Assembly: GCA_948433885.1 (NCBI GenBank)
Contig: CAOJEC010000013.1
Location: 1 to 33,737 of the forward strand
Reading direction: 5' to 3'
Source of the DNA: an uncultured bacterium
GTDB lineage: Bacteria > Bacillota_I > Bacilli_A > RF39 > UBA660
Length of the DNA stretch: 33,737 nucleotides
Each line of letters starts with the position of its first letter. Positions within the stretch are counted from its first letter, which is position 1. Shown in pieces: positions 437 through 27,919 of the stretch. The notes beneath the pieces were generated by a model. That model was not told the origin of the DNA. It did not search any database and saw only the letters and a list, made by a program, of their open reading frames with translations. The translations under genes and the position numbers were made by a program.

Positions 437-448
437 CACTTTCACATA

Positions 449-477
449 TTGTCATAGTCCAATCATTTTGTTATAAT
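449..477 (+). promoter_or_regulatory. Promoter for the gene at 498
   Basis: TTGTCA (449-454) and TATAAT (472-477) are separated by 17 nt, and the -10 box is extended (TGtTATAAT). The gene at 498 starts 20 nt downstream, behind the ribosome-binding site AGGTGA, leaving a very short leader. An inverted repeat ATGACA/TGTCAT overlaps the -35 box. Confidence 0.7.
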
Positions 478-497
478 GAATTAGAAATAGGTGAATT

Positions 498-1694: not shown

Positions 1695-1702
1695 CGAATA
1701 TC

Positions 1703-1730
1703 AAAGACGATCGCGTCGTCTTTTTCTTTT
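1703..1730 (+). terminator. Rho-independent terminator
   Basis: Stem AAAGACGA (1703-1710) pairs with TCGTCTTT (1716-1723) around a TCGCG loop, followed by a T-rich run. It closes the gene at 498-1694 and separates it from the lipid cassette. Confidence 0.85.
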
Positions 1731-1788
1731 GCCATAAATTAGAACTTTAAGCATAAGATTTATTGTATTACTAAAAGAGGCACGATAT

Positions 1789-4698: not shown

Positions 4699-4703
4699 CA
4701 TCG

Positions 4704-4729
4704 AAAGAGTTTTTGTAACTCTTTTTTTG
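4704..4729 (+). terminator. Rho-independent terminator after the lipid cassette
   Basis: AAAGAGTT (4704-4711) pairs with AACTCTTT (4717-4724), with T residues continuing to about 4728. Confidence 0.8.
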
Positions 4730-4737
4730 TTGTTCTG

Positions 4738-4793
4738 AATAAAGCATTTTAGGGCAATTATTGCTTTATTATATCTAAATATTATGTTATAAT
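4738..4793 (+). promoter_or_regulatory. Promoter with a 9-bp inverted repeat over the -35 region
   Basis: AATAAAGCA (4738-4746) and TGCTTTATT (4762-4770) form a perfect 9-bp inverted repeat with a 15-nt centre. It ends where the -35 box should lie for the extended -10 element TGtTATAAT (4785-4793). The -35 itself is poor, so a protein bound at the repeat could either activate or block the T4SS operon that starts at 4811. The promoter call is firm, the operator role is inferred. Confidence 0.55.
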
Positions 4794-4810
4794 TTTGATA
4801 TGGTGAAATT

Positions 4811-5308
4811 ATGAAAAAGATTGTTATTTGTATTTTGATACTTTTTACGTGCATATTTGCACCCGCGACCGAGGTCTATGCGAGCAATAACTTCGCACTT
4901 TCACATGTCGAACTATTCGATGGAGATAGACCCGACATAGATGTGACTGATTATGATCGAGACGATCATTTCGATACAAACTGTCAAGACTTGGCTAGAA
5001 CCATCCGAATAGGAGGAATCTTGATCTTGATTGTCAAGATAGTATTACCTCTAGTCATCATTGCCAAATCGACTTTCGACATCGGAAAAATTGCTATTTC
5101 GGGAAATCAAGGAGACCTTCAAAAAGCTGGAAAAAAATTGGGCGTCTCCATCGCGGCAGCGATAGTGATCTTTTTCTTACCAACTTTAATCAACACGGTA
5201 TTCAGTTTTATAGGTGGTTTTGAAGATGCACGAACGGCCGATTCTAAAATATGTGTGGCTTGTATATTCGATCCGAACAGTCCTGATTGTACCGATTATA
5301 TCAAATAG
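4811..5308 (+). CDS. VirB2/TrbC-like pilin-type membrane protein with signal peptide
   Basis: The 165-residue product has a signal peptide (MKKIVI start, VYA/S near residue 24), an acidic segment (residues 36-55), and two hydrophobic segments (about 67-90 and 112-136) separated by a polar loop (SGNQGDLQKAGKKLG). The tail C148-x2-C151-x-FDPN-x3-C160 matches the tail of the protein at 65-436 exactly in spacing. Topology fits a mature two-helix pilin of the VirB2/TrbC class, expected to be membrane-inserted before assembly. It lies 13 nt before the VirB6-like gene and heads the main T4SS operon, which is where many Gram-positive systems place their pilin-like gene. Confidence 0.65.
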   Translation: MKKIVICILILFTCIFAPATEVYASNNFALSHVELFDGDRPDIDVTDYDRDDHFDTNCQDLARTIRIGGILILIVKIVLPLVIIAKSTFDIGKIAISGNQGDLQKAGKKLGVSIAAAIVIFFLPTLINTVFSFIGGFEDARTADSKICVACIFDPNSPDCTDYIK

Positions 5309-5321
5309 GGAGGTGTAAAAG

Positions 5322-7427: not shown

Positions 7428-7444
7428 GAAAAGAGGAATAAAGG

Positions 7445-7765
7445 ATGAATGGCAATTATTTGATTCCGGCCAACTCGAAAAAGTCGGAAATGATACTAGG
7501 TTTATTTACACCAGTCGATTTGATACTGTTTGCCAGTGGAATAGGGCTGACAGTCATCTTGTTGCTTGCAATACATACTGACTCGCTAGGAGGAATGATC
7601 TTCATCCTCATGCCCGCATTGGTCGCATCGTTTTTGGTTTTCCCTGTACCAAATTATCACAACGTATTGCAACTTATTATAAATATATATACGTTCTTTT
7701 TCGTAAGACAAAGGACTTATAAATGGAGAGGTTGGTGTTATAAAAATGGCCGTGACAAACAATAA
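7445..7765 (+). CDS. VirB3/PrgI-like small membrane protein
   Basis: The 106-residue product has two closely spaced hydrophobic segments (about residues 23-45 and 48-68), then an amphipathic tail ending in FFVRQRTYKWRGW. A short two-helix protein with an aromatic-basic C-terminus immediately before the VirB4 N-terminal gene is typical of the VirB3/PrgI/TcpE class, which anchors the VirB4 ATPase to the membrane. The gene overlaps the next one by 20 nt. Function is inferred from context and shape. Confidence 0.6.
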   Translation: MNGNYLIPANSKKSEMILGLFTPVDLILFASGIGLTVILLLAIHTDSLGGMIFILMPALVASFLVFPVPNYHNVLQLIINIYTFFFVRQRTYKWRGWCYKNGRDKQ

Positions 7766-8297
7766 AACGACAGAGGATTGGCTTCCTATAAGAGCCATCA
7801 ACAATGGAATGATACAATTAGACAATGGATACTTGGTAACCGGAGTCAAAATAGAACCTAAAAATATATTCATATTGGATAGAGATGTACAAAACAACGT
7901 GATATTTTCACTACGTAATTTTTACAATACAATAGATTACGAATTTTGGCTCATCTCGGCCGGAAGACCTGTAGACATAAACGTCTACTTGGCGAACTTA
8001 CAAGTTCAATACAACAACACGAACAATCAACACATAAGAAAATTGTTGATGCAAGATATATCTAAAGCCAACATGTTCATGAGTACACAAATGAATGCAG
8101 TCGACACCGAATACTTCATACTTTTCAAAGAGAAAAAACCTGAAATAATACAAAAGAGACTACAAACATTGATAGGTGGACTTGCAAACTGTACATTGAA
8201 TAGCAAACAAGTATCAAACGATGACTTGCGAATGCTTCTAGATAATTTCTTCAATGGAGCAGAAAATTCGAGATTTGGGGCGGTGACTAGCGAATGA
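7746..8297 (+). CDS. VirB4-type ATPase, separate N-terminal domain protein
   Basis: The 183-residue product resembles the N-terminal domain that normally precedes the ATPase core of Gram-positive VirB4/TraE proteins: DWLPIRAINNGMIQLDNGYL, then VKIEPKNIF, then an alpha-beta region. The stop overlaps the next gene's start (ATGA at 8294-8297), and the next protein begins exactly where the family's middle domain begins. The VirB4 activity is thus likely provided by two co-translated polypeptides. There is no P-loop in this piece. A sequencing frameshift is less likely because the downstream start has its own GGCGGTG ribosome-binding site at a good distance. Confidence 0.65.
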   Translation: MAVTNNKTTEDWLPIRAINNGMIQLDNGYLVTGVKIEPKNIFILDRDVQNNVIFSLRNFYNTIDYEFWLISAGRPVDINVYLANLQVQYNNTNNQHIRKLLMQDISKANMFMSTQMNAVDTEYFILFKEKKPEIIQKRLQTLIGGLANCTLNSKQVSNDDLRMLLDNFFNGAENSRFGAVTSE

Positions 8298-10078
8298 GTT
8301 TGAAAAGTGAAATAGCCCCTAAGGGCATAGAATGGAAACCGACTACTTTCCGTTTGGGAGAAAAATATTGTACTATTCTTACGATCATCAGTTATCCTAA
8401 GTTCATCGAACATGGATACTTGGCGAACATCACGAATATTCCAGGAGTAAAAGTCGTCATCAAGCATATTCCTATCGATTTTGCATTGATGAGAAAGATG
8501 ATAGATAAAGAGATCGCCGATTTGAAAGAACGTTTTCAAAAAGAACATGATCACACACTTCAAGAAAGAATTCGTCAAGATTACGAATCGTTAGAATCGT
8601 TCATTCAACAATTAGCGGCATCTAGTGCTAAAATATTCGATTTCCAAATGCACGTCATGTTGAGTGGAGACACTGAAGACGAACTAGAAAATCGAAAACT
8701 CGAGATGAAGACATACATGACCGGATTGAACATGCGAGGAATACCTTTGATGTTCGAACAAGAAAAAGTATTGAAATCGATGCTCCCTATCTTTCCTAAA
8801 CAAGACATCGAAGATAGAATTGGAACACCAATACCATCGAATACGATTGCGGCAATGTATCCATTCGTCTTCGATTCTATCAAAGATCCAGGCTTGAGTA
8901 CACTTTTAGGAGTTGACTTCTCAGGCGGTGTAGTTTTGTTCAACCAGTTTCTTTATCAAATCAAAAAAGAGAACAACCGTAACAATGCGAACATGCTCAT
9001 ATTGGGTGCATCCGGTTCAGGTAAATCGACCGCAGCCAAATTGATGCTCAGAAACCATTTCAGAAACGAATACAAAATCATCGCCATCGATCCAGAAGGC
9101 GAACTCGAAGAAATGTGTAAAAACTTCAATGGAGATTTCATAGATCTCGGAAAAGGTGGACAACTAGGAATGATAAATCCACTAGAAGTCATCGTCGACG
9201 AAGACGAAGAAGACCTCGCAAAAGGATTGAGTTATTCAGTTTTGACGAGAGCTCTTTCTACATTGAAAGCATTCATGACGTATCTCTATCCGGACATCGA
9301 AGCGGATGTATTGACATTATTCTCAGACGTTGCACAAGATACATACAAGCGATTCAACATAGACTTCAATACCGATTTTAGAAGATTTACGAGTGCCGAC
9401 TATCCGACTTTCGACGACATATATGCGACGATCAGAGGAAGAATATTATCCATGCCTGAACATACGCGCGAAAGAGATGTCATGGAAAGACTCGAATTGA
9501 GAGTTCGTCCGATTACCAAAGAACTTCGTTACTATTTCAATGGACATACAACTATCGAGCCGGAGAGCAACTTCGTCGTCTTCAATATAAGAGAATTGAT
9601 GAATTCCGATTCGCAAATAAGAAATGCACTGTTCTTCAACATATTGAAATATGCATGGAGCCTTTGCTTGGATAAAGACATAAACACTGTTTTATCGGTA
9701 GATGAAGCACACGTCTTACTCGGCAGTCAAAACGAACTAGGAGCAGAATTCTTGGCACAGATTCAAAGACGTAGCCGTAAATACAATACGGGAACTATCA
9801 TCATCACACAACAGCCGACCGACTTTGCCGCTGACAAAATCATCATGCACGGTAAAGCCATATTCGACAATGCAAGTTACTACTTGGCAATGGGCTTGAA
9901 AAAACAAGCTGTCGAAGATCTATCGAAATTGATAGACTTGAATGAAAATGAAATTGAAACTATCAAACGTTTCAGTCAAGGACAAGGATTGTTCGTCTGC
10001 GGATCTAGACGAATGCAAATCAATGTCGTCCTCACTCAGGATGAACTCGATTCATTCGGAACAGGTGGAGGATTATAG
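8294..10078 (+). CDS. virB4: VirB4-type T4SS ATPase, middle and C-terminal ATPase domains
   Basis: The 594-residue product carries the VirB4 ATPase core. It has a Walker A motif GASGSGKS with K244, a Walker B region LSVDEAH with D470 and E471, and RRSRKYNTGTIIITQQPTDF, the downstream sensor/arginine region of the VirB4/TraC family. The first 220 residues form the middle domain with phrases such as GVKVVIKHIPID and MFEQEKVLKSMLP. The protein would energise pilus assembly and substrate transfer as a hexamer at the membrane base. It partners with the 183-residue protein encoded just upstream. About 20 nt separate it from the wall-hydrolase gene. Confidence 0.88.
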   Translation: MSLKSEIAPKGIEWKPTTFRLGEKYCTILTIISYPKFIEHGYLANITNIPGVKVVIKHIPIDFALMRKMIDKEIADLKERFQKEHDHTLQERIRQDYESLESFIQQLAASSAKIFDFQMHVMLSGDTEDELENRKLEMKTYMTGLNMRGIPLMFEQEKVLKSMLPIFPKQDIEDRIGTPIPSNTIAAMYPFVFDSIKDPGLSTLLGVDFSGGVVLFNQFLYQIKKENNRNNANMLILGASGSGKSTAAKLMLRNHFRNEYKIIAIDPEGELEEMCKNFNGDFIDLGKGGQLGMINPLEVIVDEDEEDLAKGLSYSVLTRALSTLKAFMTYLYPDIEADVLTLFSDVAQDTYKRFNIDFNTDFRRFTSADYPTFDDIYATIRGRILSMPEHTRERDVMERLELRVRPITKELRYYFNGHTTIEPESNFVVFNIRELMNSDSQIRNALFFNILKYAWSLCLDKDINTVLSVDEAHVLLGSQNELGAEFLAQIQRRSRKYNTGTIIITQQPTDFAADKIIMHGKAIFDNASYYLAMGLKKQAVEDLSKLIDLNENEIETIKRFSQGQGLFVCGSRRMQINVVLTQDELDSFGTGGGL

Positions 10079-10099
10079 AAAAGTAGGTGACACAACAGT

Positions 10100-12178
10100 A
10101 TGGGATTTTTTGACAAACGAAAAAAGGAAGACGAAAAAGAAAAAGACGGTTCCTTTCTTGCCGGGATGATGGCAGTTTGGCATGCGCTTCCCATATCTGC
10201 AAAATTGTCGATCATCGGAGGATTAGCAGGTATCGTATTATTAATAGTAATCGCGGTAGTTATCTGTTCTATTCCTCTTATTTTTTTGAATTACTCTGAT
10301 GATGCTTCGACGAGCCAAGATTTAAAAGATGAATACGAACAATATTGGATCGAACTTTGTGAAGACCAAGATGCGGGCTGTTCAGAAGAACAAATCGAAG
10401 TTGCTAAAGAATTAAAAAAATCACAAGAAGAGTTCTACAAAAAACTCAACTCTTTGACTGAGAAAAATCATTTGACAGAAGAACAAAAATACATCGTCTT
10501 GACGACCATATTTTATAACTACGAAATCGACGATTTCACTCAGGGAAATTTGGCTTTTTCTCTTGACGATAACGATGAAATAAACTACGATGCTTCTCAA
10601 AATGAAGGAAGCATCTACAATAGAGAAAAAGATTCTCTAAAAGAACTCATCAAACAATTCAAAGTTAATACTATCTTTTGTTCATATACGGGAAAAAATG
10701 AAAGTGGCGAAGATGAAACAAAAACATACGCTTTGAGAAGTCCTGCAGGTAAGACATTTGCGATCAACTTTTTCGAAAGTGTTCAGATCAATTTGGGATT
10801 TTCACCTAAACTCGAAGGATACGAAGAGGCTAAAAGTGAGTGTTTATCATCTACGGACGGTAAGATTTACACCGAGACTTCTTCTAATTCGGCTGCCTCG
10901 ATCGAAGGATACTATAACTATCTAAGAGAGTCGACATATTTGGATGATCGACCTCAAAATGCAATGGAATTTTCAGCATACGCCAAAAATCACGGACTAT
11001 CTTCGGATACGACTACTTGGGCTGACGAAGAACTTTACGCTGTACGTGATAGCATCATAAACGACATCAAAAACATCGTCGCTACACACAGTCCTGCGAA
11101 AACGACGAACAAGGACTTCATCGCTTTGGGATCGGAAACAGGATATTGGTGGCCGATCGGTGGAGCAGATGTCATCGAATCTGAAGGCAAAAAATACGCA
11201 ACTGGGGACCCATACCCTTATGTTGTCACTTCAGAAGGAGGAGGACGTATAGATCCGATAACCGGAGTAGCTGCTAACCACAGTGGAATCGACATCGCCC
11301 CAAAGGGTGCAGCTGCAGGTGTCGTCCCGGTGATCGCAGCAAAGTCCGGTGAAGTAGTTTTTCCCGAAGCCGACGATAATATAAACTACGGTAATGGTTC
11401 AGGTATAAACGGTTCGACATACGGTAACTATATCAAAATAAAACATTCCGATGGTAACTATACGTTGTATGCACACTTGCACGCGAACACTATACTCGTT
11501 CGCAAAGGTGATACGGTCGAACAAGGACAAGTCATCGCCTATGTCGGAAACAGTGGACGTTCGACGGGAACACACTTGCACTTCGAAGTGCGCGAAGGTC
11601 AAGACAATTACAACAGTGTAACCGATCCAAGAAAATACATCAAAGAAGACGATCCACGACCACAATCTTCAGTTTCTGAAGACTTCGTCACATGGTTCGA
11701 TGCCAACTTTGAAGGAACAACCGGCACGGACTCCACTGGTACGAAATATCTCGTCAAAGATGTCGGAGACGGAGTGAGAACTGCTGGTCCGGGTGTCACA
11801 TTGGATGCTCAAAGGAAAAAGTTTGCGGCTCACGGCATAAACGTCGACGATTATCCGAATGGATCATATATTGATAAAAATATCGTCGATGCGATCAAGA
11901 GACAAATTTTAGAAGAAGCCGCCGCATCTATCGAAACGACACTTGCAAATGCTGGACTCACTCTCGAAAAAGAAAAGATCGAAGCACTCGTCGTATTCAA
12001 ATACAATGTCGGAAACATCAGCGGATTCGTCGATGCTTATAAACAGTATGGAGATACCCAAGAATTATACGATAACTACTTTGGCCAATACATTCATGTC
12101 AAAGGAGAAGTATGGCCAGGACTCATCAAACGACGTCAAAAAGAATGGGAATTGTTCCACAATCACGTTTATGTATGA
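10100..12178 (+). CDS. Bifunctional peptidoglycan hydrolase: M23 endopeptidase + GH24-like lysozyme (VirB1 role)
   Basis: The 692-residue product has a cytoplasmic basic tail, one transmembrane segment (about residues 35-63) and a long extracellular spacer. An M23/LytM domain follows, with Zn ligands H394 and D398 in HSGID and the HLHFE motif at 492-496. The C-terminal domain matches the GH24 phage-lysozyme pattern: FEG with E538 as candidate catalytic acid, GDGVRTAGPGVTL, and the terminal GLIKRRQKEWELF signature. M23 enzymes cut peptide cross-links and GH24 enzymes cut the glycan, so the protein can open both parts of the wall for the T4SS, like TcpG/CwlT-type proteins. Presence implies the organism and its targets have peptidoglycan. 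Ribosome-binding site AGGTG precedes ATG 10100. Confidence 0.85.
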   Translation: MGFFDKRKKEDEKEKDGSFLAGMMAVWHALPISAKLSIIGGLAGIVLLIVIAVVICSIPLIFLNYSDDASTSQDLKDEYEQYWIELCEDQDAGCSEEQIEVAKELKKSQEEFYKKLNSLTEKNHLTEEQKYIVLTTIFYNYEIDDFTQGNLAFSLDDNDEINYDASQNEGSIYNREKDSLKELIKQFKVNTIFCSYTGKNESGEDETKTYALRSPAGKTFAINFFESVQINLGFSPKLEGYEEAKSECLSSTDGKIYTETSSNSAASIEGYYNYLRESTYLDDRPQNAMEFSAYAKNHGLSSDTTTWADEELYAVRDSIINDIKNIVATHSPAKTTNKDFIALGSETGYWWPIGGADVIESEGKKYATGDPYPYVVTSEGGGRIDPITGVAANHSGIDIAPKGAAAGVVPVIAAKSGEVVFPEADDNINYGNGSGINGSTYGNYIKIKHSDGNYTLYAHLHANTILVRKGDTVEQGQVIAYVGNSGRSTGTHLHFEVREGQDNYNSVTDPRKYIKEDDPRPQSSVSEDFVTWFDANFEGTTGTDSTGTKYLVKDVGDGVRTAGPGVTLDAQRKKFAAHGINVDDYPNGSYIDKNIVDAIKRQILEEAAASIETTLANAGLTLEKEKIEALVVFKYNVGNISGFVDAYKQYGDTQELYDNYFGQYIHVKGEVWPGLIKRRQKEWELFHNHVYV

Positions 12179-12194
12179 TAAAGGAGAATAGAAA

Positions 12195-12716
12195 ATGGAA
12201 GAAGAAACTGAAAAGAAAAAAAGAAACTTTACCATCATCTTAGGTTTGATAACAGTCGTCATCTATGTAGGCATTTTCTTCATCGTAGATTCGAGTGAAA
12301 AAGAAACAAACAAAAAAAATGCCAAGCCGGTGACCAATTACAGTGAATTTTACACCGTAAGTTCTTGTGCAAACTTGTACATAAACGCCCTGGCATCAAA
12401 AAATACAAAGACCCTTTTGAATCTTCTCACAGATTCTTATAAAAAGAAAAATTTTATAACCGAATCGAACGTCGTCGATTCACTACCGATAATCGCCGGT
12501 GGAAGTGAATTTTCGGCTCACGGTATGTACTATGAGAAATCGAAAAAAGAAGTATACAAATATTACGTCAGAGGATATCTAGAAGTCGGTGGCCTCGATA
12601 TGAACGAAAGAAGCAGAGTAGAAACATATTTGATCGTCTATTTGGATAAAGAGAACAACTTATATTCGATCGAACCATACGACGGACTCGAATTCAAGGA
12701 GGGGACATTTGCATGA
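12195..12716 (+). CDS. Membrane-anchored VirB8/NTF2-like candidate, copy 1
   Basis: The 173-residue product has a basic N-terminus (EEETEKKKRN), one transmembrane segment (about residues 12-32) and an exported domain of some 130 residues. The alternating helix-strand pattern (SCANLYINAL, LLNLLTDSYKKK, then strands YKYYVRGYLEV and TYLIVYLD) suggests an NTF2-like fold, the fold of VirB8 and TcpC domains. It lies between the wall hydrolase and a similar small gene with which it overlaps by 4 nt (ATGA). In T4SS operons that slot commonly holds VirB8-like scaffold proteins. I do not recognise a diagnostic motif, so this is a structural guess. Confidence 0.45.
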   Translation: MEEETEKKKRNFTIILGLITVVIYVGIFFIVDSSEKETNKKNAKPVTNYSEFYTVSSCANLYINALASKNTKTLLNLLTDSYKKKNFITESNVVDSLPIIAGGSEFSAHGMYYEKSKKEVYKYYVRGYLEVGGLDMNERSRVETYLIVYLDKENNLYSIEPYDGLEFKEGTFA

Positions 12717-13177
12717 AAAACAAATACACCTTCATAACGTCCGTCATCATCGTCCTTCTCTTCATAGGAACTATCATAGGAATATTCGTGTTCTACAAAC
12801 TGCCAAAAGTCACCCCGGAATTCGACTATCTCAAAAACTACGAAGATAACGAATACATGCCTGCATACATTTCGGAAGAGAAGATGGTAAATTTGTATTA
12901 TAAAGATTATTTGACATACGTGAAAACTAATATACAAAAAGCTTACGATCTTTTGAATGAAGAATATAAAAAGAAGAGATTTCCGACGATCGACTCTTTC
13001 AAAAGTTTTATAATTCCGTTCGAAAACTTCACCCCAGAATCTTATGCAGTCGAACTAAAAGACGAGAAAAAAGTGTTCTACATTAAACTTACGGACGGCA
13101 ACGAAATAATATTCTCGACGACCGGAGTCATGATTTATGAGGTATATTTCGACGAAATTACAGTGAATATAGAATAA
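12713..13177 (+). CDS. Membrane-anchored VirB8/NTF2-like candidate, copy 2
   Basis: The 154-residue product has a single N-terminal transmembrane segment (about residues 6-28) and a soluble outer domain. It shares the element YDLLNEEYKKKRFPTIDSF with the LLTDSYKKKNFITES region of its upstream neighbour. The two are likely diverged paralogues that could form a heteromeric scaffold. A very strong ribosome-binding site (AAGGAGGGG) lies within the end of the upstream gene. It is the last gene before an apparent internal promoter for the coupling protein. Function is inferred from context. Confidence 0.45.
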   Translation: MKNKYTFITSVIIVLLFIGTIIGIFVFYKLPKVTPEFDYLKNYEDNEYMPAYISEEKMVNLYYKDYLTYVKTNIQKAYDLLNEEYKKKRFPTIDSFKSFIIPFENFTPESYAVELKDEKKVFYIKLTDGNEIIFSTTGVMIYEVYFDEITVNIE

Positions 13178-13225
13178 CGTAGCATTTTCAAAAAAAATAG
13201 TATATAATAGGTCAAAGAAAAGGGA

Positions 13226-15472
13226 ATGATTAGATTGAAATTGAAAGTTAGAGTAAAAAAGAAAGACTTTATCCTATTTATAGGTATATGTTTGGCCCTA
13301 TTCGTGGGATGTGCAATTTTGGCAATAAACTTCATATCTTTTGGTGATAATGCAGAATTAGTTGGCCTAAATATATTTGCTCACATGAATAGCCAAGCAT
13401 TCGGCTTGACAGTGTTTTTATTCATCGTCTCATTAGTAGGAATATTTTTCAGTGTTTCATCGACCATTTTCGATTTCGAAAAAGGCGGTTTGGGACTGAT
13501 CTTCGGAGAAAAAGAAGAGAAGGGTTACAATAGATGGACGACCGAGAAAGAGATGAAAGAAGCCTTCGGTATCAAGAAAGTTCAAGTCAACTTGCCGACG
13601 AGTACGGCAGGCGGAATCGTCATGGTCAACGATGGAAAAAATATGTGGGTAGATGATGGAGAGTATCACTCTCTCATAATAGGTCAATCCGGTTCAGGAA
13701 AAACTACCGCTCTCGTCGATCCACAAGTTTACAGCCTTTGTAAAAATGGCGAATCCATGGTCATAACGGACCCTAAAGGAGAAATTTATAAAAGACATGC
13801 TAATCGACTAAAAGATAAGGGATACAAACTCGTCGTCATCAATTTCCGTGATCCACGTGAAGGAAATGCTTGGAACCCGCTTACCATCCCGTATAGAATG
13901 TACAAACAAGGTAAAACAGATAAAGCAAAAGAGTTACTAGAGGACATAAGCCAAAATATTTTGATCGACCCTAAAAATACGAACGACCCATTTTGGGAGA
14001 GAAGTGCGTCGGACTATTTCTCGGGATTAGCTTTATCATTATTTGAAGATGCCAAAGAAAACGAAGTAAACATAACATCGATAAGCAATATGGCATCCCA
14101 AGGTGAAGAAAAAAATGGATTGAACACATTTGCCAAAGACTATTTCACTTTGAAGGGCGAGACAGCCGCACCTTACGAATATGCTAAGGCGACTATCACC
14201 GCACCGAACGACACAAAATCGAGTATTTTGTCCGTCTTCCAAAGTAAAATAAGAACGTTCAGTACCCGTGAAGAATTGTCAGAAATGCTTTCTTACAGTG
14301 ACTTCAACATGGAAGATATCGGTAAAGAAAGAACTGCCGTATTCTTGATCGTTCACGATGAAAAGACGACATATCACTCACTCGCGACGATTTTTATCAA
14401 ACAATTGTACGAAGTTTTGATCGACGTCGCTCACAAGAACAAAGACGGAGCATTAAAATATAGAACGAATTTCATTCTCGACGAGTTCGCTAATATGCCC
14501 CAACTTCGAGACGTTACTTCGATGGTCACAGCCGCACGTTCTAGACGTATAAGATTTACTTTTATCATTCAAAACTTTGCTCAGCTAGACGAAGTTTATG
14601 GTGACAAAAATGCTGAGACGATAAGAAGTAACTGTGGTAACACTGTCTATCTTTTGACGAACGAACTTTCGGCTCTCGAAGAAATAAGTAAACTTTGTGG
14701 AGAAGTCAAATCCAAAAAAGACGATAAGACAGTTTCGACTCCTCTCGTGACAGTTACCGATTTGCAAAAGATGAAACGAAACGAAATCATCGTCATTCGT
14801 ATGCGTATGCGTCCATTCAGAACTGTACTGAAAGGATCTTACGACATCGATTGGGGGGACTATTTTGAAGAAGCCACTATACCGGAAAGAGATACATATC
14901 CAGTAAAAGTCTTCGACATGAAATCTTATGTCAAAGAAGAAAAAAGAAAAAAGACGATGGATGCCATCAATAAAGCTCAAGAGGCGACTGCCAATGGACC
15001 AAAGAGTCCGGTGCCACCTTTGGGGCCTACATTCGATGATATGTCAACTCCAAACAACTTTAATATTCCAAAAGCACCGATGAGTTCGATGAGTAAAGAT
15101 CCATTCGATCTAGATAAACCTGTCGATATCGACGAACTAGTCAAAAATATCGACGCACAAATCGCCGAACTCGAACGTGAACAAAAAGAAGAAGAAAGAA
15201 AACGTAGAGAGCTAGAAAACAAACCTAAACCTAGACCTACTATAGAACAAAATTTTATCGAATCATTGCCACATGCCGACAGTGTGAGACCGCCGAAAGT
15301 TTTTCCTAAACCGACTATCGAATCCATTAGTGAAGGTACCTTTTCAAAAGGCGATACGACTATTAAAGTACCAGACAACAAAATCAATGTCGACGATTCG
15401 AGTGTCGTTCTAAGCAATCAACTCGTCACAGACGATCAATTCTTCGACGATTTCTTTGGCGATGATGAATAA
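13226..15472 (+). CDS. virD4: VirD4/TraG-type T4SS coupling ATPase
   Basis: The 748-residue product has two N-terminal transmembrane segments (about residues 12-35 and 55-76), then the coupling-protein core: Walker A GQSGSGKTT with K159, the family motif ITDPKGEIY, and Walker B ILDEFANMP with D419 and E420. After about residue 560 comes a proline-rich and charged tail with a coiled segment (AELEREQKEEERKRRELEN) and an acidic end (FFDDFFGDDE), probably for substrate or partner binding. Such proteins bring DNA or protein substrates to the T4SS channel. A TATAAT at 13203-13208 may give separate expression. ATG 13226 sits only 1 nt after AAGGG, so TTG 13235 is a possible real start. No relaxase gene is nearby. 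Confidence 0.9.
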   Translation: MIRLKLKVRVKKKDFILFIGICLALFVGCAILAINFISFGDNAELVGLNIFAHMNSQAFGLTVFLFIVSLVGIFFSVSSTIFDFEKGGLGLIFGEKEEKGYNRWTTEKEMKEAFGIKKVQVNLPTSTAGGIVMVNDGKNMWVDDGEYHSLIIGQSGSGKTTALVDPQVYSLCKNGESMVITDPKGEIYKRHANRLKDKGYKLVVINFRDPREGNAWNPLTIPYRMYKQGKTDKAKELLEDISQNILIDPKNTNDPFWERSASDYFSGLALSLFEDAKENEVNITSISNMASQGEEKNGLNTFAKDYFTLKGETAAPYEYAKATITAPNDTKSSILSVFQSKIRTFSTREELSEMLSYSDFNMEDIGKERTAVFLIVHDEKTTYHSLATIFIKQLYEVLIDVAHKNKDGALKYRTNFILDEFANMPQLRDVTSMVTAARSRRIRFTFIIQNFAQLDEVYGDKNAETIRSNCGNTVYLLTNELSALEEISKLCGEVKSKKDDKTVSTPLVTVTDLQKMKRNEIIVIRMRMRPFRTVLKGSYDIDWGDYFEEATIPERDTYPVKVFDMKSYVKEEKRKKTMDAINKAQEATANGPKSPVPPLGPTFDDMSTPNNFNIPKAPMSSMSKDPFDLDKPVDIDELVKNIDAQIAELEREQKEEERKRRELENKPKPRPTIEQNFIESLPHADSVRPPKVFPKPTIESISEGTFSKGDTTIKVPDNKINVDDSSVVLSNQLVTDDQFFDDFFGDDE

Positions 15473-15476
15473 TATT

Positions 15477-15500
15477 GAGCATGAAAAGTGCTCTTTTTTT
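15477..15500 (+). terminator. Rho-independent terminator ending the T4SS operon
   Basis: GAGCA (15477-15481) and TGCTC (15489-15493) enclose a 7-nt loop and are followed by seven T residues. The stem is short but the T-run is good. Confidence 0.65.
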
Positions 15501-15504
15501 GCCC

Positions 15505-15534
15505 TTGACAAAAAGCTCGGGGGGAGGGTATAAT
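15505..15534 (+). promoter_or_regulatory. Promoter with G-rich spacer (possibly phase-variable type)
   Basis: TTGACA (15505-15510) and TATAAT (15529-15534) are separated by 18 nt. The half of the spacer next to the -10 box is GGGGGGAGGG (15519-15528). The promoter at 33269-33300 has the same layout with an unbroken G11 and a 20-nt spacer. The A at 15525 interrupts this tract and should make it more stable. Confidence 0.8.
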
Positions 15535-15540
15535 CTTGAG

Positions 15541-15663
15541 TAGATAATACAGTAGACAAGATAATCGAATCGAAAAAAAGTTTTTTTCAAAAGATACTAC
15601 TTATAAAATCGACTCGACGTGGCCGTCAAGCTTTTTGTGGGTCTAAAAATGAGGAGTGATAAA
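15541..15663 (+). other. Untranslated leader of the Hint surface-protein gene
   Basis: About 123 nt separate the predicted transcription start from ATG 15664. It contains a G-A7-G-T7-C inverted repeat (15572-15588) and a short hairpin GACG-TGGC-CGTC (15616-15627). The distance from -10 box to ATG is 130 nt, exactly as in the paralogue at 33430, and each leader has a short stem-loop 37-50 nt before the start. This points to a conserved regulatory leader, function unknown. Confidence 0.45.
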
Positions 15664-17103
15664 ATGAATTTGAAAACAAAAAGAACTATATGTTTACTAG
15701 TCGCGATTGCATCGGTATTGACGATCGTAGGAAGTGTATCTTATGCATACTTCACGGCGATTGGAGAAGTCAGTTCTTTAGATGCTAAATTAGATACAGC
15801 AAATGTAAGTGTTACATTTAGAGACAACGATTTGGGATTGAGTGCTGTATTGAATATAGATGAATCGGTCACAAAGAAGTTCACAATTGAAAACACGGGA
15901 ACAGTAGATGCATCGGTGAAGATGTATTTCGATGAGATGATCAATACATATACTGAAGGAAGTTTGACATATACGCTTTTCTACAGTGAAACCAGCGAAG
16001 GGCCTTACACCGAAGTAGTAAGTACCAAAAATGTACCAGTAAGTTCTGCAAGAGTGAGGAAGACACTAGCTAATGAACTTATGATTCCACTAGGTAAGAC
16101 ATATTACTATAACCTAGAAGTAACTTTCAATCACTTAAAAGACGAGAATCAAGATAAAGACTTAGAAGCCATATTCAATACAAAATTCAAAGTAGTGGAT
16201 ATCAAAGAAACCGAAAAGCGTACTTTAATCTTCGATGCAGGAGAAGGAACAGCTGATATGGAAAATCTCACAGTAATAGATGGAGAACCCTATGGAGATT
16301 TGCCTGAAGCAACGATGTATGGATACAACTTCTTGGGGTGGTTCACAGCAAGAGAAGGTGGAATACAAATAACTTCGGATACGATAGTCAATCTAGCAAG
16401 TAGTCAAAATCTTTATGCTAAGTTCGAGCCTAAAATAATAAACGTCACATTGGATGCCAGAGACGGTTACTTAGATAATGATAGAAATCTTCATAAAAAA
16501 GTTATTCAAGTAAGATATGGAGATACATATGGAGAACTACCAATTGCCAAAGGAATGGGAGAATGCAAATACGATTCTATAGGGTGGTCGTTGACTGGTC
16601 TTGAAAAGGATATAATTCCCAAGGATGCGAAAATAACGAATGCCGAAGACCATGTTTTATATGCTTTTGCTCCTTCACCAGCATGTTTCTTAAAAGGAAC
16701 ATTAATTTACACACCAAATGGATATGTACCTATAGAAGACTTAAAAGTAGGCGAAGAAGTATATTCATATAATGAGAAGACAAAAGAAATAGAAATATCA
16801 AAATTGACACAGGTTTTCATAAGACAAGCCACTAACTATATGAAAGTTACATTAAAAACAGGAACAGTTATATATGTAACACCTGAACATCCTTTCTACG
16901 ACAAAGAAACCGAAACATGGAAACCTATAAAAGCATCCAAAGTCGGAGACAAATTCATGGATGAAGAAGGAAATGAAATAGAGATAGCCTCTATAGAAGA
17001 GAATGAAAAAGAAGTGACAGTATACAACTTAGAAGTCGATGGTAACCACGATTACTTCGTTTCAAAAGATAATATATTAGTTCATAATAAACTTGTTTGT
17101 TAA
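15664..17103 (+). CDS. Surface protein: SipW/camelysin-type N-terminus, InlB-like repeats, C-terminal Hint domain
   Basis: The 479-residue product starts at ATG 15664 behind AGGAGTGATAAA. A start 45 nt upstream is possible but lacks a ribosome-binding site. A basic MNLKTKR and a hydrophobic segment run into GSVSYAYFT, the signal seen in TasA/camelysin proteins cut by SipW peptidase. A TasA-like beta domain (to about residue 190) is followed by two InlB/Flg_new-type repeats (about 195-335, with GYNFLGWFTA). The last 135 residues are a Hint domain. C341 opens ACFLKGTLIYTPNGYVPIE, T406 and H409 form block B in VTPEHPFY, and block G ends VHN (H474, N475). Only KLVC follows N475. Hint domains autocleave at the first cysteine. 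Here that would release or esterify the surface part, as hedgehog proteins do with sterol. The anchoring role is inferred. Confidence 0.8.
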   Translation: MNLKTKRTICLLVAIASVLTIVGSVSYAYFTAIGEVSSLDAKLDTANVSVTFRDNDLGLSAVLNIDESVTKKFTIENTGTVDASVKMYFDEMINTYTEGSLTYTLFYSETSEGPYTEVVSTKNVPVSSARVRKTLANELMIPLGKTYYYNLEVTFNHLKDENQDKDLEAIFNTKFKVVDIKETEKRTLIFDAGEGTADMENLTVIDGEPYGDLPEATMYGYNFLGWFTAREGGIQITSDTIVNLASSQNLYAKFEPKIINVTLDARDGYLDNDRNLHKKVIQVRYGDTYGELPIAKGMGECKYDSIGWSLTGLEKDIIPKDAKITNAEDHVLYAFAPSPACFLKGTLIYTPNGYVPIEDLKVGEEVYSYNEKTKEIEISKLTQVFIRQATNYMKVTLKTGTVIYVTPEHPFYDKETETWKPIKASKVGDKFMDEEGNEIEIASIEENEKEVTVYNLEVDGNHDYFVSKDNILVHNKLVC

Positions 17104-23454: not shown

Positions 23455-24927
23455 ATGACTAAAAAAACCAAAAAAATGTTGATGATAGGGGCGATCATTA
23501 TAATACTTGCGAATCTAATCCCGACCATCGCGACAAAATTGTCCATGACAAGCCAAAAAAGAAAATTCAACATGATTTCCTCGACATCAAATATGTTCTT
23601 CGAAGATGAACTCAAACTTTTTGCCAAAGAAAACAACATCGACTTGTCCATAGACTACTATGGAGATTTAGAGATTGTCGATACCCGGTAGTCTTGGCTG
23701 TAACAAAAGATAAAGCCAATGAACTGAACCTATATTCACAAGAAATTACCAACGAAAACATATTGAGAGCGATAGAAACGAAAAAGTTGAATTATGTCAT
23801 GCCTAGCGTGACGAAAACTAATATAGGCGCTACTGCCTACTTGGGTTTTTTGAACAGTCTCGCTGGCAGTCCCGAAGTACTCACCGTCGAAATGTTAAAA
23901 AATCCCGATTTGATCGCAAGCATGAAGGCATTCTTTAAAGGCGTCGAACGAGTTAGTGGTGACGAATTATACCTCGAAGAAATGTTCTTAAACGGTTCGT
24001 ACGATGCCATAATAAATTACGAATCTTCCCTAATAGAAATGAATAAATTACTCGAACGCGAAGGCAAAGAACCATTACACTTGATATATCCTAAAGATGG
24101 AGTGGCGATAAACGACATGCCATTTGGATACGTCGAACGAAATCAAGATAAAAAAGAAAACTTTGAAAAGATATTGAATTACCTGAGAAGTGAAAAGGTT
24201 AGCAAACTTCTCGAAAATCATGGCATAAGAACATGGTATGGAGGAGTTAACAATCAATCCGATTCGAACTCTTTCAAAAAAGAATGGGGAATAGACATCA
24301 ACAAATATCTGATACCACTAAAATACCCTAGTAAAAAAGTCATGACTGAAGCATTGGACATATACGTCGAATCGTTGAGAAAATCGACCATACAGTATTT
24401 TGCTTGGACATATCGGGAAGCATGCAAGGAACAGGACTAGAAGAACTAAAAGACGCGATGAATTACATACTAGATAGAGAACAAGTTGGCAAAGACCGAT
24501 TACAATTTTCGAGTTATGATAAAATATCGATCATCACATTCAACTCTCTAGTACAAAAAAATCTTTGGTCTACACTGGAGATGACACGAAAAATGCGATA
24601 AACTTCGTCGATAGCCTCAAAGCATCAGGCGGGACCAATATATACGATCCTTCCCAAGAAGCTTTAAAAATACTAGAAAACACGAATTCGAAAGAGTATA
24701 CTCGCATGGTGATATTGATGACGGACGGCGAATCGAACGTCGGTCAATTTGAAAAACTGAGAAGATACTATCAAAACAACTCACTAGATATTCCTATATA
24801 CAGTATTATGTTCGGAGAATCGAATGAAAGACAGCTTTCCGAAATAGCTCTTTTGACGAACGCCAAAATATTCGACGGCAAAGAGGGTTTAAAAGAAGCC
24901 TTCAAAGAAGTTAGGAGTTATAACTGA
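23455..24927 (+). pseudogene. Solute-binding + von Willebrand factor A protein, broken by three frameshifts
   Basis: Four reading-frame pieces (23455-23691, 23694-24440, 24404-24601, 24565-24927) join into one protein of about 490 residues when one base is added at each of three homopolymers: the C3 run at 23684-23686, the T4 run at 24398-24401 and the A7 run at 24555-24561. The restored junctions read VDTPVVLAVT, QYFCLDISGSM and VQKKSLVYTGDD. The N-terminal part has a membrane anchor and a substrate-binding-protein-like fold. The C-terminal part is a VWA domain with MIDAS residues DISGS, SGGTNIY and LMTDGES. Such proteins sit beside XpaC and TelA genes in Firmicutes. The gene is either decaying or affected by sequence errors. 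The downstream gene overlaps its stop (TGATGA). Confidence 0.8.
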
Positions 24928-25819: not shown

Positions 25820-26923
25820 ATGCCAATAAAAATATTCGTAGATAAAAACTGGTTAGAAGCAAACAAAGATTTTGCCGATACAACGATTACTTCTAAAAAT
25901 AAGCAATTTATAGACCACAGTATAAAAATATTACACCAAGCACGTCAAGAATTCGTCGAATCGTTAAAAAAGCAAGGATTGATAGTCACTTCTGACCCAA
26001 AAGAATACGATGAAAACACAATTTGTATCATCGATTCTCCTCAGTTGATTTCACATGATAATTCCTTCCAACCGATTTATCAGGTTATAGAAAGAAAGAT
26101 CCATTCTTCCGGAGGTCCGGATTTTAATTATCCGACAACTGTCGATCTACCATCCTTTTGGCAAAGACCTTTCTATCCGGCAGTATTCAAAAATATAGGT
26201 GTAAACCGCGGAATAGATAAATTTCTAGTAGAGACACCCGAACAATTTGCAAAAATATTTGCTTATTTTCAAAAATCTTTGGCTGAAAACATCAAACTAA
26301 ATTGGAGAGATGTAGTATTTCAACAGTACATCGAAACACCTACGAACTACAAAACTTACATGCGTGTATTAGTTTCAGGAGCAGGAAAAGTCTTAGGCTC
26401 GAGTCTCAAGTGTTCGAAGAATATGCCAAATTCTATTAGCTTAGACGGCGATTTCGAGAGAGTTTTCTTGAGACCGGATTCTCCTTTCTTTATAAGAGCA
26501 AAAAAGATGTTCAATTACTATTCAGGTGGAGATAATATTTCCTTAGAAAAACCAGAATTTCTAAATGACGAACAAAAAAGAACGCTTGCTGCTCATGGAA
26601 TAGATCCAAACAATATGCAAGTTCCAAATGAAGTTATGAATGTTTGCAGGAATATCATGGCTAACTGTAACAAGGAATTGGGTGTAATTGCTGGGATAGA
26701 CTTTATTTTGAATGAAAGAGATGGTCATTGGTACTTTTTAGAATTTCACTCCCAACCTGCGATCGACGAATGGGCAGACGTACGAGGCATACCACTCCCA
26801 CCAGACGATGGAGAAATAGAAAACTATATTGCTAGAGAAATGTACGAACTAGTATTGAGAAAAGAAGCACTCACCCAAATAATCGAACAAAGACTGAAAA
26901 AAGATCAAAAGCAAGATTTTTAA
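25820..26923 (+). CDS. ATP-grasp-like ligase of unknown substrate
   Basis: The 367-residue product resembles ATP-grasp enzymes. YPAVFKNIGVNRGIDKFLVE fits the first ATP-binding strands, VVFQQYIETPTNYKTYMRVLV fits the central region with its acidic/basic ligands, and GVIAGIDFILNERDGHWYFLE followed by FHSQPA fits the Mg-binding strand (D, E and a terminal polar residue, usually E-x-N-S-P; here EFHSQPA). ATP-grasp enzymes activate a carboxylate as acyl-phosphate and join it to an amine or thiol. The usual ENS asparagine position is altered, so activity may be diverged. It has its own promoter, ribosome-binding site AGGGGGC, and no obvious partner gene. Substrate is not inferable. Confidence 0.6.
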   Translation: MPIKIFVDKNWLEANKDFADTTITSKNKQFIDHSIKILHQARQEFVESLKKQGLIVTSDPKEYDENTICIIDSPQLISHDNSFQPIYQVIERKIHSSGGPDFNYPTTVDLPSFWQRPFYPAVFKNIGVNRGIDKFLVETPEQFAKIFAYFQKSLAENIKLNWRDVVFQQYIETPTNYKTYMRVLVSGAGKVLGSSLKCSKNMPNSISLDGDFERVFLRPDSPFFIRAKKMFNYYSGGDNISLEKPEFLNDEQKRTLAAHGIDPNNMQVPNEVMNVCRNIMANCNKELGVIAGIDFILNERDGHWYFLEFHSQPAIDEWADVRGIPLPPDDGEIENYIAREMYELVLRKEALTQIIEQRLKKDQKQDF

Positions 26924-26985
26924 TCACTTTTTTTGACAAATTTCCATCGACTTGTAAATAAACTCTAGTAAAAAAATCGATTCTA

Positions 26986-26994
26986 TGTTATCAT
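26986..26994 (+). promoter_or_regulatory. Extended -10 promoter of antisense RNA 1
   Basis: TGtTATCAT (26986-26994) matches the extended -10 form used elsewhere in the window. No good -35 box is present. The predicted start is near 27001, and the sequence is the same in unit 2. Confidence 0.5.
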
Positions 26995-27000
26995 GAATAT

Positions 27001-27112
27001 GTCAAGGAAATTTGCATAAAATAAAAAAGGGAACATTCAGTTTTTGCGAGTTGAATGTCTACCTAGTTTAATTTTAGTAAACACTTATTCTAGCGAATGA
27101 GTGTCACTTTTT
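27001..27112 (+). ncRNA. Candidate antisense (antitoxin) RNA 1
   Basis: A plus-strand RNA of about 110 nt would run from the extended -10 at 26986-26994 to a terminator. The terminator is a 10-bp stem ACACTTATTC/GAATGAGTGT (27081-27104, one G-U pair), loop TAGC, then CAC and six T. The RNA converges on the minus-strand peptide mRNA, covering its last 1-3 codons and all of its 3' UTR. It contains GTTGAATGTCTACC (27050-27063), which copies the peptide mRNA's 5' UTR element with one difference. In unit 2 the terminator stem has different bases but stays paired. Confidence 0.6.
27033..27058 (-). terminator. Minus-strand terminator of peptide mRNA 1
   Basis: ACATTCA (27033-27039) and TGAATGT (27052-27058) form a hairpin. 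On the minus strand it is followed by CCC and a run of six T at 27030-27023, so the mRNA should end near 27023. Confidence 0.65.
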
Positions 27113-27196
27113 TATAACTACTATCATAATGATTAGGAGTAACAAAATGATAGAAAGATACCTAAGAACTTTCAATATAAAAGTTCTTTTTTTCAT
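27104..27196 (-). CDS. 30-residue hydrophobic peptide 1, candidate type I toxin
   Basis: ATG at 27196-27194 (minus) is preceded by GGAGG nine nt upstream. The stop TGA is at 27106-27104. The peptide has a basic start MKKR, one long hydrophobic segment (residues 14-28, rich in Ile, Leu and Val) and a C-terminal KK. Unit 2 encodes a peptide of equal length with 20 of 30 residues identical and mostly conservative changes elsewhere (R/K, L/V, L/F, S/A), so the frame has been maintained as protein. The size and layout match type I toxins such as Fst, TisB or Ldr that insert in the membrane. A small regulatory membrane peptide is an alternative. Toxicity is not shown. Confidence 0.75.
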   Translation of the reverse strand: MKKRTFILKVLRYLSIILLLLIIMIVVIKK

Positions 27197-27226
27197 TTCA
27201 TCAAACCTCCTCTCTATAAGAGATTT

Positions 27227-27240
27227 GGTAGACACTCAAC
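27227..27240 (-). promoter_or_regulatory. 5' UTR fold-back element and SD hairpin of peptide mRNA 1
   Basis: On the minus strand this reads GTTGAGTGTCTACC. It can pair over all 14 positions (one G-U) with GGTAGACATTCAAC in the same RNA's 3' tail (27063-27050 minus). Between it and the start codon, UCUCU-UAU-AGAGA (27221-27209) forms a hairpin directly against the GGAGG ribosome-binding site, and CAAA/UUUG can close around it. Confidence 0.6.
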
Positions 27241-27260
27241 AACTGATATTCCCTAGAAAA

Positions 27261-27311
27261 ATTATACTAAAAGATGCATTCTAATACAATGTGATTACAA
27301 TCTTTTGTCAA
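27261..27311 (-). promoter_or_regulatory. Promoter(s) of peptide mRNA 1
   Basis: On the minus strand TATAAT (27266-27261) has TTGTAT (27289-27284) 17 nt upstream. A further TTGACA (27311-27306) sits 17 nt before TGTATT (27288-27283), so two overlapping promoters are possible. The nearer would give a 5' UTR of about 58 nt. Confidence 0.7.
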
Positions 27312-27403
27312 CTTACAAAATTGATAATCGATTCTTCGACAAATTTTTGTCGATTCGTAAATAAGGCCTAGTAAAAAAATCGATTCTATGTTATCATGAA
27401 TAT

Positions 27404-27520
27404 GTCAAGGAAATTTGCATAAAATAAAAAAGGGAACATTCGGTTTTGACAAGTTGAATGCCTACCTAAATTTAATTAAGTGGACATTTAATTCAATAAA
27501 GAATTAAGTGTCATTTTTTT
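27404..27520 (+). ncRNA. Candidate antisense (antitoxin) RNA 2
   Basis: From TGtTATCAT (27389-27397) the RNA would start near 27404. It would end at the stem GACATTTAATTC/GAATTAAGTGTC (27483-27494, 27501-27512, one G-U) followed by seven T. The stem sequence differs from unit 1 but remains a 12-bp helix, which is evidence for selected structure. It contains GTTGAATGCCTACC (27453-27466). Confidence 0.6.
27437..27460 (-). terminator. Minus-strand terminator of peptide mRNA 2
   Basis: CATTCG (27437-27442) and TGAATG (27455-27460) pair with one G-U. On the minus strand it is followed by TTCCC and a T-run, as in unit 1. Confidence 0.6.
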
Positions 27521-27603
27521 ATAACTACTATCATAATGATAAAGAGAAATAAAATGATAGCAATGAGCTTTAAAACTTTTACAATAAAAGCTTTAGTTTT
27601 CAT
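27511..27603 (-). CDS. 30-residue hydrophobic peptide 2, candidate type I toxin
   Basis: ATG at 27603-27601 (minus) lies ten nt after GGAGG, and the stop TGA is at 27513-27511. It starts MKTKAF and ends IIMIVVIKK, with the hydrophobic segment at about residues 13-28. It is the paralogue of peptide 1 with identical length. The differences include compensated basic residues at positions 3-4 (KR versus TK). The mRNA again has a 5' element GTTGAGTGTCTACC (27648-27635 minus) that pairs with the 3' tail GGTAGGCATTCAAC (27466-27453 minus) over 14 positions with two G-U pairs. The terminator T-run follows at 27431-27424. Confidence 0.75.
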   Translation of the reverse strand: MKTKAFIVKVLKLIAIILFLFIIMIVVIKK

Positions 27604-27668
27604 TTTTATCAAACCTCCTCTCTATAAGAGATTTGGTAGACACTCAACAACTGATATTCCCTAGAAAA

Positions 27669-27719
27669 ATTATACTAAAAGATGCATTCTAATACAATGT
27701 GATTACAATCTTTTGTCAA
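27669..27719 (-). promoter_or_regulatory. Promoter(s) of peptide mRNA 2
   Basis: The arrangement is identical to unit 1: TATAAT (27674-27669 minus) with TTGTAT 17 nt upstream, and TTGACA further up. Confidence 0.7.
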
Positions 27720-27788
27720 CTTACAAAATTGATAATCGATTTTTGTGACAAATATCCATCGATTTAGTAGTTAATTAGAGGGATTCGT

Positions 27789-27817
27789 TTGACAACGAGC
27801 TCCTTTTTTGATAAAAT
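27789..27817 (+). promoter_or_regulatory. Promoter of the rplU operon
   Basis: TTGACA (27789-27794) and TAAAAT (27812-27817) are 17 nt apart. Confidence 0.85.
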
Positions 27818-27823
27818 ACCCTT

Positions 27824-27919
27824 GTTTGTAATTATTTTATAAACCGCACTTAGAAGGTTCAAGAGCGAATGCCACCTTTTGAAGGCGAGTCCTAAAAAAT
27901 ATGATGGGAGGTAAAAATA
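27824..27919 (+). ncRNA. L21-type ribosomal protein leader
   Basis: The 5' UTR between promoter and rplU contains AACCGCACTTAGAAGGTTC, a helix CCTT-TTG-AAGG (27873-27883) and GGCGAGTCC before GGGAGG. Composition and position fit the L21 leader found upstream of rplU in many Firmicutes, thought to let L21 or a partner repress its own operon. The match is from memory of the motif. Confidence 0.55.

Follow-up and report, generated by a model that had tools for sequence, protein, structure and literature searches.

Tandem modules of a probable new type I toxin-antitoxin family, with a 3′-overlapping antisense RNA and a predicted self-locking mRNA, in an uncultured Bacilli lineage

The DNA analyzed here is a 33,737-nt stretch (the window) of an uncultured bacterium of the GTDB lineage Bacteria; Bacillota_I; Bacilli_A; RF39; UBA660 (assembly GCA_948433885.1, contig CAOJEC010000013.1, positions 1 to 33,737 of the forward strand). 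Between an ATP-grasp-like gene and the L21 leader of rplU, it carries a tandem unit that an earlier note, made from the sequence alone, had described as two direct repeats, each a candidate type I toxin-antitoxin module. Both repeats were found, copy 1 at 26929-27331 (403 bp) and copy 2 from 27332 to ~27744. As the note had claimed, each encodes on the minus strand a 30-residue, single-helix peptide equipped with a GGAGG and a TTGTAT-17-TATAAT promoter. The two peptides, described there as 20/30 identical, measured 67% identity.

In copy 1, the putative toxin promoter consists of a -35 element (TTGTAT; 27289-27284, minus strand) and, 17 nt away, a -10 element (TATAAT; 27266-27261) that is conserved in the family consensus. 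Promoter and terminator positions and the family consensus predict a peptide mRNA of ~233 nt (27022-27254, minus strand) that starts at A27254 and ends at its U-tract. Behind the leader (27227-27254) lies a Shine-Dalgarno (SD) sequence, GGAGG (27210-27206), which the leader fold places within a hairpin (27227-27202), and then an open reading frame (ORF; 27196-27104) for MKKRTFILKVLRYLSIILLLLIIMIVVIKK, a single hydrophobic helix with cationic ends. The 3′ end of the mRNA (27028-27063) includes the hairpin (27058-27033) and T-run (27028-27023) proposed earlier as its own terminator. The promoter of copy 2 is displaced by +408 (27669-27697, minus strand), and the corresponding predicted mRNA of ~238 nt (27425-27662) has its GGAGG at 27618-27614 and an ORF at 27603-27511 that encodes MKTKAFIVKVLKLIAIILFLFIIMIVVIKK. 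Neither peptide contains proline or glycine.

On the plus strand, copy 1 has a promoter at 26966-26994 with a degenerate -35 (TAGTAA), a 17-nt spacing and an extended -10 (TGTTATCAT). Together with its terminator, it predicts an antisense RNA of ~113 nt (27001-27113), close to the "about 110 nt" of the note, and the equivalent RNA of copy 2 has a predicted length of ~118 nt (27404-27521). The copy 1 RNA begins with a 5′ hairpin (CAAG-GAAA-TTTG; 27003-27014), identified by eye in alignments, and ends with a terminator at 27081-27113 (hairpin 27081-27104, then a T-run); that of copy 2 is at 27483-27520 (hairpin 27483-27512, then a T-run). The region had two terminator-like sites, namely these, where 0.3 were expected from shuffled sequences. 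The stems differ in sequence between the copies and stay paired in both, as had been observed before. By predicted ends, antisense RNA and mRNA of copy 1 overlap by 92 nt; the overlap lies in the 3′ third of the mRNA and extends into the final codons of the ORF. The reading of the locus as a convergent, 3′-overlapping type I system was consistent with all computational tests run.

The module layout given in the note was borne out, and three things had been overlooked: dispersed copies, a hairpin at the 5′ end of the antisense RNA, and a fold-back that joins the 5′ and 3′ ends of the mRNA. In the same metagenome-assembled genome (MAG), the DNA of copy 1 had nine matches and the core TTGCATAAAATAAAAAAGGGAA occurred seven times (reversed control, 0); other copies there encode different peptides of the same type, such as MHKKDFLILSLILIIFLLIALLFTLVK and MNKKDFLILSLVIIIFLLILLLFITLI. 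Among 147 relatives, the core was present in 71 genomes and a DNA match in 68. When GTDB genomes were scanned for the exact core, the hits were MAGs obtained from the guts of rabbit, goat, deer and chicken, among other sources; nearly all are labeled Bacilli, Tenericutes, Mycoplasma or Bacillales, and some Candidatus Onthousia or Ventrenecus. A covariance model built on the antisense 5′ region was positive in 100 of 145 genomes, representing 99 of 144 genera, of the GTDB family, with 1-24 copies each; the family's genomes examined were all metagenome assemblies. In a class-wide draw of 395 genomes, the model's hits were 37 genomes of that family and one more (G320), among ~340 genomes of the class from outside the family. 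That match (L188; G320:C32:11739-11833) was strong (E 7e-15), lies in another family of the class and has flanking ORFs unlike those of the family loci; it could reflect transfer or mis-binning. Since the matches are nearly exclusive, the module appears to be a standard possession of one uncultured Bacilli family.

Using the conserved promoter core, we extracted ~120 distinct complete modules, and distant relatives with another promoter would therefore be missed. The whole layout recurs in these modules across ~100 genera, with conservation of the two promoters and two terminators, of the SD hairpin and of the overlap. The plus-strand promoter and the 5′ part of the antisense RNA form the most conserved segment. 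When modules were aligned on the core, the antisense promoter read CTTGnnAAAA-17-TGnTATnAT; 114 of 120 had the extended -10, and 110 of those 114 had at least 4/6 matches to TTGACA at a distance of 16-18 nt. The presence of this motif upstream puts the antisense start of copy 1 near 27001. An alternative start at TGCATAAAAT, which would give an RNA of 85 nt, was rejected because the conserved block lies upstream of it; the TGCATAAAAT stretch is made up of the 3′ half of the 5′ hairpin and an A-rich linker with complementarity to the toxin U-tract. From its 5′ end, the antisense RNA consists of the 5′ hairpin, the linker, a hairpin designated SL1 (7 of 8 pairs covary) and the terminator. By eye, the 5′ hairpin of the family is CAAG-GAAA-CTTG or GCAAG-N4-CTTGC, with GAAG/CTTC and TCAAG/CTTGA variants. 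Under a strict stem criterion (score of at least 8), antisense terminators were found in 92% of subfamily A modules (subfamilies are described below), 71% of B, 94% of C, 57% of D, 100% of E and F, and 20% of G, compared with 0-5% in shuffled sequences. In subfamilies A and B, the terminator U-tract is the complement of the C-terminal Lys-Lys codons.

The peptides of the ~120 modules are short, hydrophobic single helices of 24-30 residues and fall into seven subfamilies: A, to which the window peptides belong (MKTKTFIIKVLKLIAIILFLLIIMIVVIKK-like), B (MKKKDLLISFLILIIILLIVSLMILCIKK), C (MHKKDFLILSLILIIFLLIALLFTFVI), D (MNKKDFLILSLVIIIFLLLFLLFIVLI), E (MRKSEKYLCSIIILLIIVILIILIKIVPTV), F (MTKKDFLIFALIVIIILLILLLFK) and G (MTKRELSQFIIILLLFFIVITLLFK). 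Hydrophobicity is kept while the peptide sequence varies between subfamilies, and ORF start, SD and frame are retained. Ratios of non-synonymous to synonymous substitution rates (dN/dS) were 0.36 for A, 0.21 for B, 0.20 for C and 0.19 for D, indicating purifying selection on the peptide frame in these four larger subfamilies. Loss of the frame in related genomes had been named beforehand as an outcome that would speak against the modules; the frame is kept across ~100 genera. Profile searches with the peptides gave nothing significant in Pfam, NCBIfam, PHROGs or PADLOC, where sensitivity is limited for 30-residue queries.

The predicted window mRNAs fold at -75.7 kcal/mol (copy 1) and -69.3 kcal/mol (copy 2), with z-scores of -8.5 and -7.5 against dinucleotide shuffles. 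In these folds, the leader pairs with the 3′ end, so that 27227-27254 and 27028-27063 of copy 1 form the 5′ and 3′ arms of a fold-back, the latter containing the mRNA terminator. RNAalifold, applied to each subfamily separately, recovered the pairing in 7 of 7 subfamilies. Duplex energies were -33 to -37 kcal/mol when a leader was paired with its own 3′ end and -11 to -26 kcal/mol when the partner came from another subfamily, and none of 2000 partner permutations reached the observed mean, either overall (z-score -18) or within subfamilies (z-score -10). Across an alignment of 116 sequences, 84.8% of cells were paired, versus 29-49% when the partner was slid by 1-3 columns. Compensatory double changes occurred in 23 of 28 pairs (e.g., pair 24-13, C-G in 55 sequences and T-A in 47), and the 337 double-change cells exceeded the maxima of 500 permutations made over all sequences (185) or within subfamilies (316). 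The predicted complementarity is kept through wholesale sequence change between subfamilies. Taken as a whole, these data support an mRNA locked by a long-distance interaction between its 5′ and 3′ ends.

The SD also sits in a hairpin of the leader alone. For the leader plus 30 nt, its mean unpaired probability was 0.06 in A, 0.00 in F and 0.09 in E, and in full-length mRNAs it was predicted to be mostly paired in all subfamilies (0.03-0.28 unpaired). When the last 70 nt were removed from the window mRNAs in silico, the leader was predicted to pair with one arm of the stop-codon hairpin, a possible second lock. Because of this alternative pairing, 3′ trimming may by prediction either open or close the translation start.

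The antisense RNA's SL1 domain and the leader of the mRNA hardly differ in sequence, which implies that leader and antisense RNA compete for the same 3′ tail. The antisense RNA of copy 1 was predicted to bind its own mRNA at -151 kcal/mol and that of copy 2 at -84 kcal/mol, and likewise in reverse, the cognate pair being ~65 kcal/mol better. Duplexes of the antisense RNA with its own leader were 0.5-10 kcal/mol better than those with cross partners; the leader repeat is inverted relative to the 3′ end.

We consider it probable that these modules represent a new family of type I toxin-antitoxin modules that joins a 3′-overlapping antisense RNA to an mRNA locking itself by 5′-3′ pairing. The candidate toxin would be a single-helix membrane peptide of 24-30 residues that disturbs the cytoplasmic membrane. 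Its ~230-nt mRNA would be made locked: in a first step the leader hairpin would hide the SD, and once the 3′ end is complete the leader (~GGGAAuAUCAGUUGUUGAGUGUCUACC) would pair with the last 36 nt before the U-tract in a panhandle, a pairing shown by covariation, the same leader segment being a candidate to pair with the stop-codon hairpin arm. The convergent promoter would yield the ~113-nt antisense RNA, nearly all of it within the 3′ third of the mRNA. Its SL1 would compete with the leader for the 3′ tail and then zip into a ~92-bp duplex, probably to be cut by RNase III. Activation would require 3′ trimming of the mRNA or loss of the shorter antisense RNA, and tandem and dispersed copies may keep their own RNA pairs, in line with the cognate preference predicted for copies 1 and 2. 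A bolder formulation, to which we give an even chance, is that the mRNA leader is an internal copy of the antitoxin, that the mRNA silences itself in cis by the pairing that the antitoxin uses in trans, with two RNAs competing for one 3′ tail, and that this is a standard, multi-copy, lineage-specific device of about two-thirds of the genera in one uncultured Bacilli family. The proposed self-silencing in cis draws on the near-identity of SL1 and leader, which have co-varied across the seven subfamilies.

Several points weigh against the toxin-antitoxin interpretation. Transcription, translation and toxicity are all deduced from sequence, and toxicity is argued by resemblance (a hydrophobic helix, a cationic C-terminus and antisense control). 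About 31% of the genomes in the GTDB family have no detectable copy, dN/dS was 0.86 in subfamily E (6 sequences) and 0.60 in F (2 sequences), predicted SD occlusion within the leader on its own is incomplete for subfamilies B, C, D and G (unpaired probability 0.41-0.50), and the antisense -35 of copy 1 (TAGTAA) deviates from the family motif. The same RNA anatomy could instead serve a non-toxin: a small, antisense-controlled membrane peptide such as a regulatory or signaling peptide or a membrane-stress effector. The indirect case for toxicity leaves room for such a product, the conservation of the A-D peptides would also fit a functional regulatory peptide, and multiple paralogous subfamilies occur side by side. 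However, three costly layers of silencing (SD hairpin, fold-back and antisense RNA) are typical for harmful products, the sequence varies freely between subfamilies with hydrophobicity kept, and the copies are dispersed without common neighbor genes, as in toxin-antitoxin modules; we regard a non-toxin role as unlikely.

The units could also be read as non-coding mobile repeats resembling miniature inverted-repeat transposable elements, with leader and 3′ end as terminal inverted repeats and an incidental ORF. They are indeed dispersed, multi-copy and ~300-400 bp long, with ends that form an inverted repeat; copies are frequent break points of MAG contigs, and one copy (L004) is near an IS200-like transposase gene. 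This explanation is very improbable in view of conservation that passes the inverted repeats into two inward-facing promoters outside them, an ORF that keeps its frame, start, SD and low dN/dS, and complementarity that survives wholesale sequence change between subfamilies. We find it scarcely credible that the plus-strand RNA is the main product, a trans-acting small RNA with the minus-strand transcript as its sponge. Its promoter and 5′ part are the most conserved, as that scheme would have it, but a peptide frame with SD is kept in all subfamilies, and SL1 varies in step with the mRNA leader, as expected of a cis partner and not of a fixed trans target.

Of 121 modules in this family, 45 had a neighboring core within 800 bp, always in the same orientation and often from another subfamily. 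No neighbor gene was common to most modules; recurring neighbors were ABC transporter-type genes, one putative protein near five modules, and small reading frames on the modules themselves. Immediately past the tandem modules lies an Rfam match to the L21 ribosomal protein leader (27831-27902; 37.2 bits). A conserved genomic site beside rplU was considered and rejected, as rplU adjoins no other fetched module. Searches for plasmid or phage carriers were negative: blastn gave no match in PLSDB or INPHARED, and two patterns of the core had none in IMG/VR. L004 (G000:C14) is a copy ~150 bp from the transposase gene mentioned above. Module L096 is chimeric, with a subfamily F peptide and a 3′ trailer (the antisense region) that is the same as in module L008 of subfamily C, suggesting that modules have recombined. 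At L044 (G050:C1) and L007 (G000:C27), in two MAGs whose genera differ, module and neighboring reading frame are near-identical, which suggests either recent transfer or one mis-binned contig present in both MAGs. Contigs end inside or next to modules in G000:C27:1, G083:C41, G199:C71, G287:C52 and others; module repeats probably break assemblies, and copy numbers are minimum values because MAG contigs often end inside modules.

Elsewhere in the window, translations inspected by eye revealed a type IV secretion/conjugation-like cluster (65-17103) beside the housekeeping genes nusA and infB. It comprises pilin-like, VirB6-like and PrgI-like proteins, a cell-wall hydrolase, a VirD4-like coupling protein and a VirB4 in two overlapping ORFs (7746-8297 and 8294-10078). 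Also by eye, the protein at 15619-17103 opens with a signal-like sequence and has repeat segments, a TasA/CalY-like domain and, at its C-terminus, a Hint-type domain whose last residues are VHNKLVC; it resembles proteins that cut themselves before a variable end. A substrate-binding/VWA-type gene (23455-24927) is apparently split over four consecutive or overlapping short ORFs, suggesting frameshifts that mark a pseudogene or an assembly error.

Type I systems are held to be poorly conserved and hard to find by homology. In the family described here, one RNA architecture can be traced by a covariance model through ~100 genera, with the peptide almost wholly changed between subfamilies. It would join two schemes that usually occur in separate systems, the 3′-overlapping antisense RNA and the self-locking mRNA, and it offers a natural alignment deep enough for testing models of metastable folding. 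It would also mean that an uncultured gut lineage whose genomes are small (~1-1.7 Mb) carries type I modules, and up to 24 copies in such genomes need explaining.

The earlier note had seen no obvious known family, and peptide and RNA indeed went unnamed in every profile library searched. In Rfam 15, no module matched above the gathering score, the L21 leader being the only match in the whole window, and a search of 26900-27800 gave nothing significant. A search of one literature collection returned no paper combining toxin-antitoxin with RF39, and Mollicutes and Tenericutes gave no matching system. Type I systems are stated to be known from Tenericutes (PMC12390103), and the present family may already be listed in T1TAdb.

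The likeness to TxpA/RatA, BsrG/SR4 and Fst proposed at the outset holds for half of the anatomy; the self-locking mRNA is nearer to hok and AapA. The present modules resemble txpA/RatA, bsrG/SR4, bsrE/SR5 and yonT/SR6 of B. subtilis, whose antitoxins bind the 3′ ends of the toxin mRNAs, in an SD within a short local stem and an overlap of ~100 nt, and the covarying leader/3′-end fold-back and the near-identity of SL1 and leader do not appear in the excerpted descriptions of those systems (PMC6562991). The present peptides gave no profile match, at a length of 30 residues that limits profile sensitivity. In Fst systems, the promoters converge, the terminator is shared and bidirectional, and there are direct repeats and a PXXXG-type motif (PMC7472228). 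With Fst/RNA I-RNA II (par of pAD1) and Fst/Ldr, our modules share convergent promoters, an mRNA of ~230 nt, a peptide of ~30 residues, the SD stem-loop and the intramolecular pairing of the mRNA 5′ end (PMC7472228). The peptides here lack the P/D/S/TXXXG motif of Fst/Ldr and its Pfam/NCBIfam match, and instead of a shared bidirectional terminator there are separate hairpins for mRNA (27033-27058) and antisense RNA (27081-27104). The direct repeats of Fst are spanned by both RNAs, whereas the repeats here are inverted, leader versus own 3′ end.

The antisense RNA of aapA/IsoA is directed at the 5′ part of the mRNA. So is that of hok/Sok (PMC6562991). The present antisense RNA differs in that it lies opposite the 3′ end of the mRNA and the lock's 3′ arm; hok/Sok and aapA/IsoA are, moreover, from another phylum and gave no sequence match in profile libraries. 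The aapA mRNAs are locked by a 5′-3′ long-distance interaction after metastable hairpins and activated by 3′ trimming (PMC6733600). Common to aapA/IsoA of Helicobacter, hok/Sok and our modules is the 5′-3′ mRNA lock, here indicated by folding and covariation, and metastable intermediates, several chromosomal copies and a 30-residue peptide are cited as further shared features (PMC6733600; PMC8309996). The CD2517.1/RCd8 group of C. difficile has peptides of 50-53 residues, compared with 24-30 here. Zor/Orz and Ibs/Sib of E. coli are alike in their tandem or repeated, very short hydrophobic peptides (ZorO, 29 residues; IbsC, 19 residues) with antisense RNAs (PMC8309996). They differ in that no profile match was obtained and that the present modules are restricted to an uncultured Bacilli family and have a 3′-convergent antisense RNA and a fold-back mRNA. 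The family thus combines the antisense position of the B. subtilis systems, the overall size of Fst and the lock of aapA, and departs from each in a defining respect. We class it as a new family that is type I-like in its mechanism.
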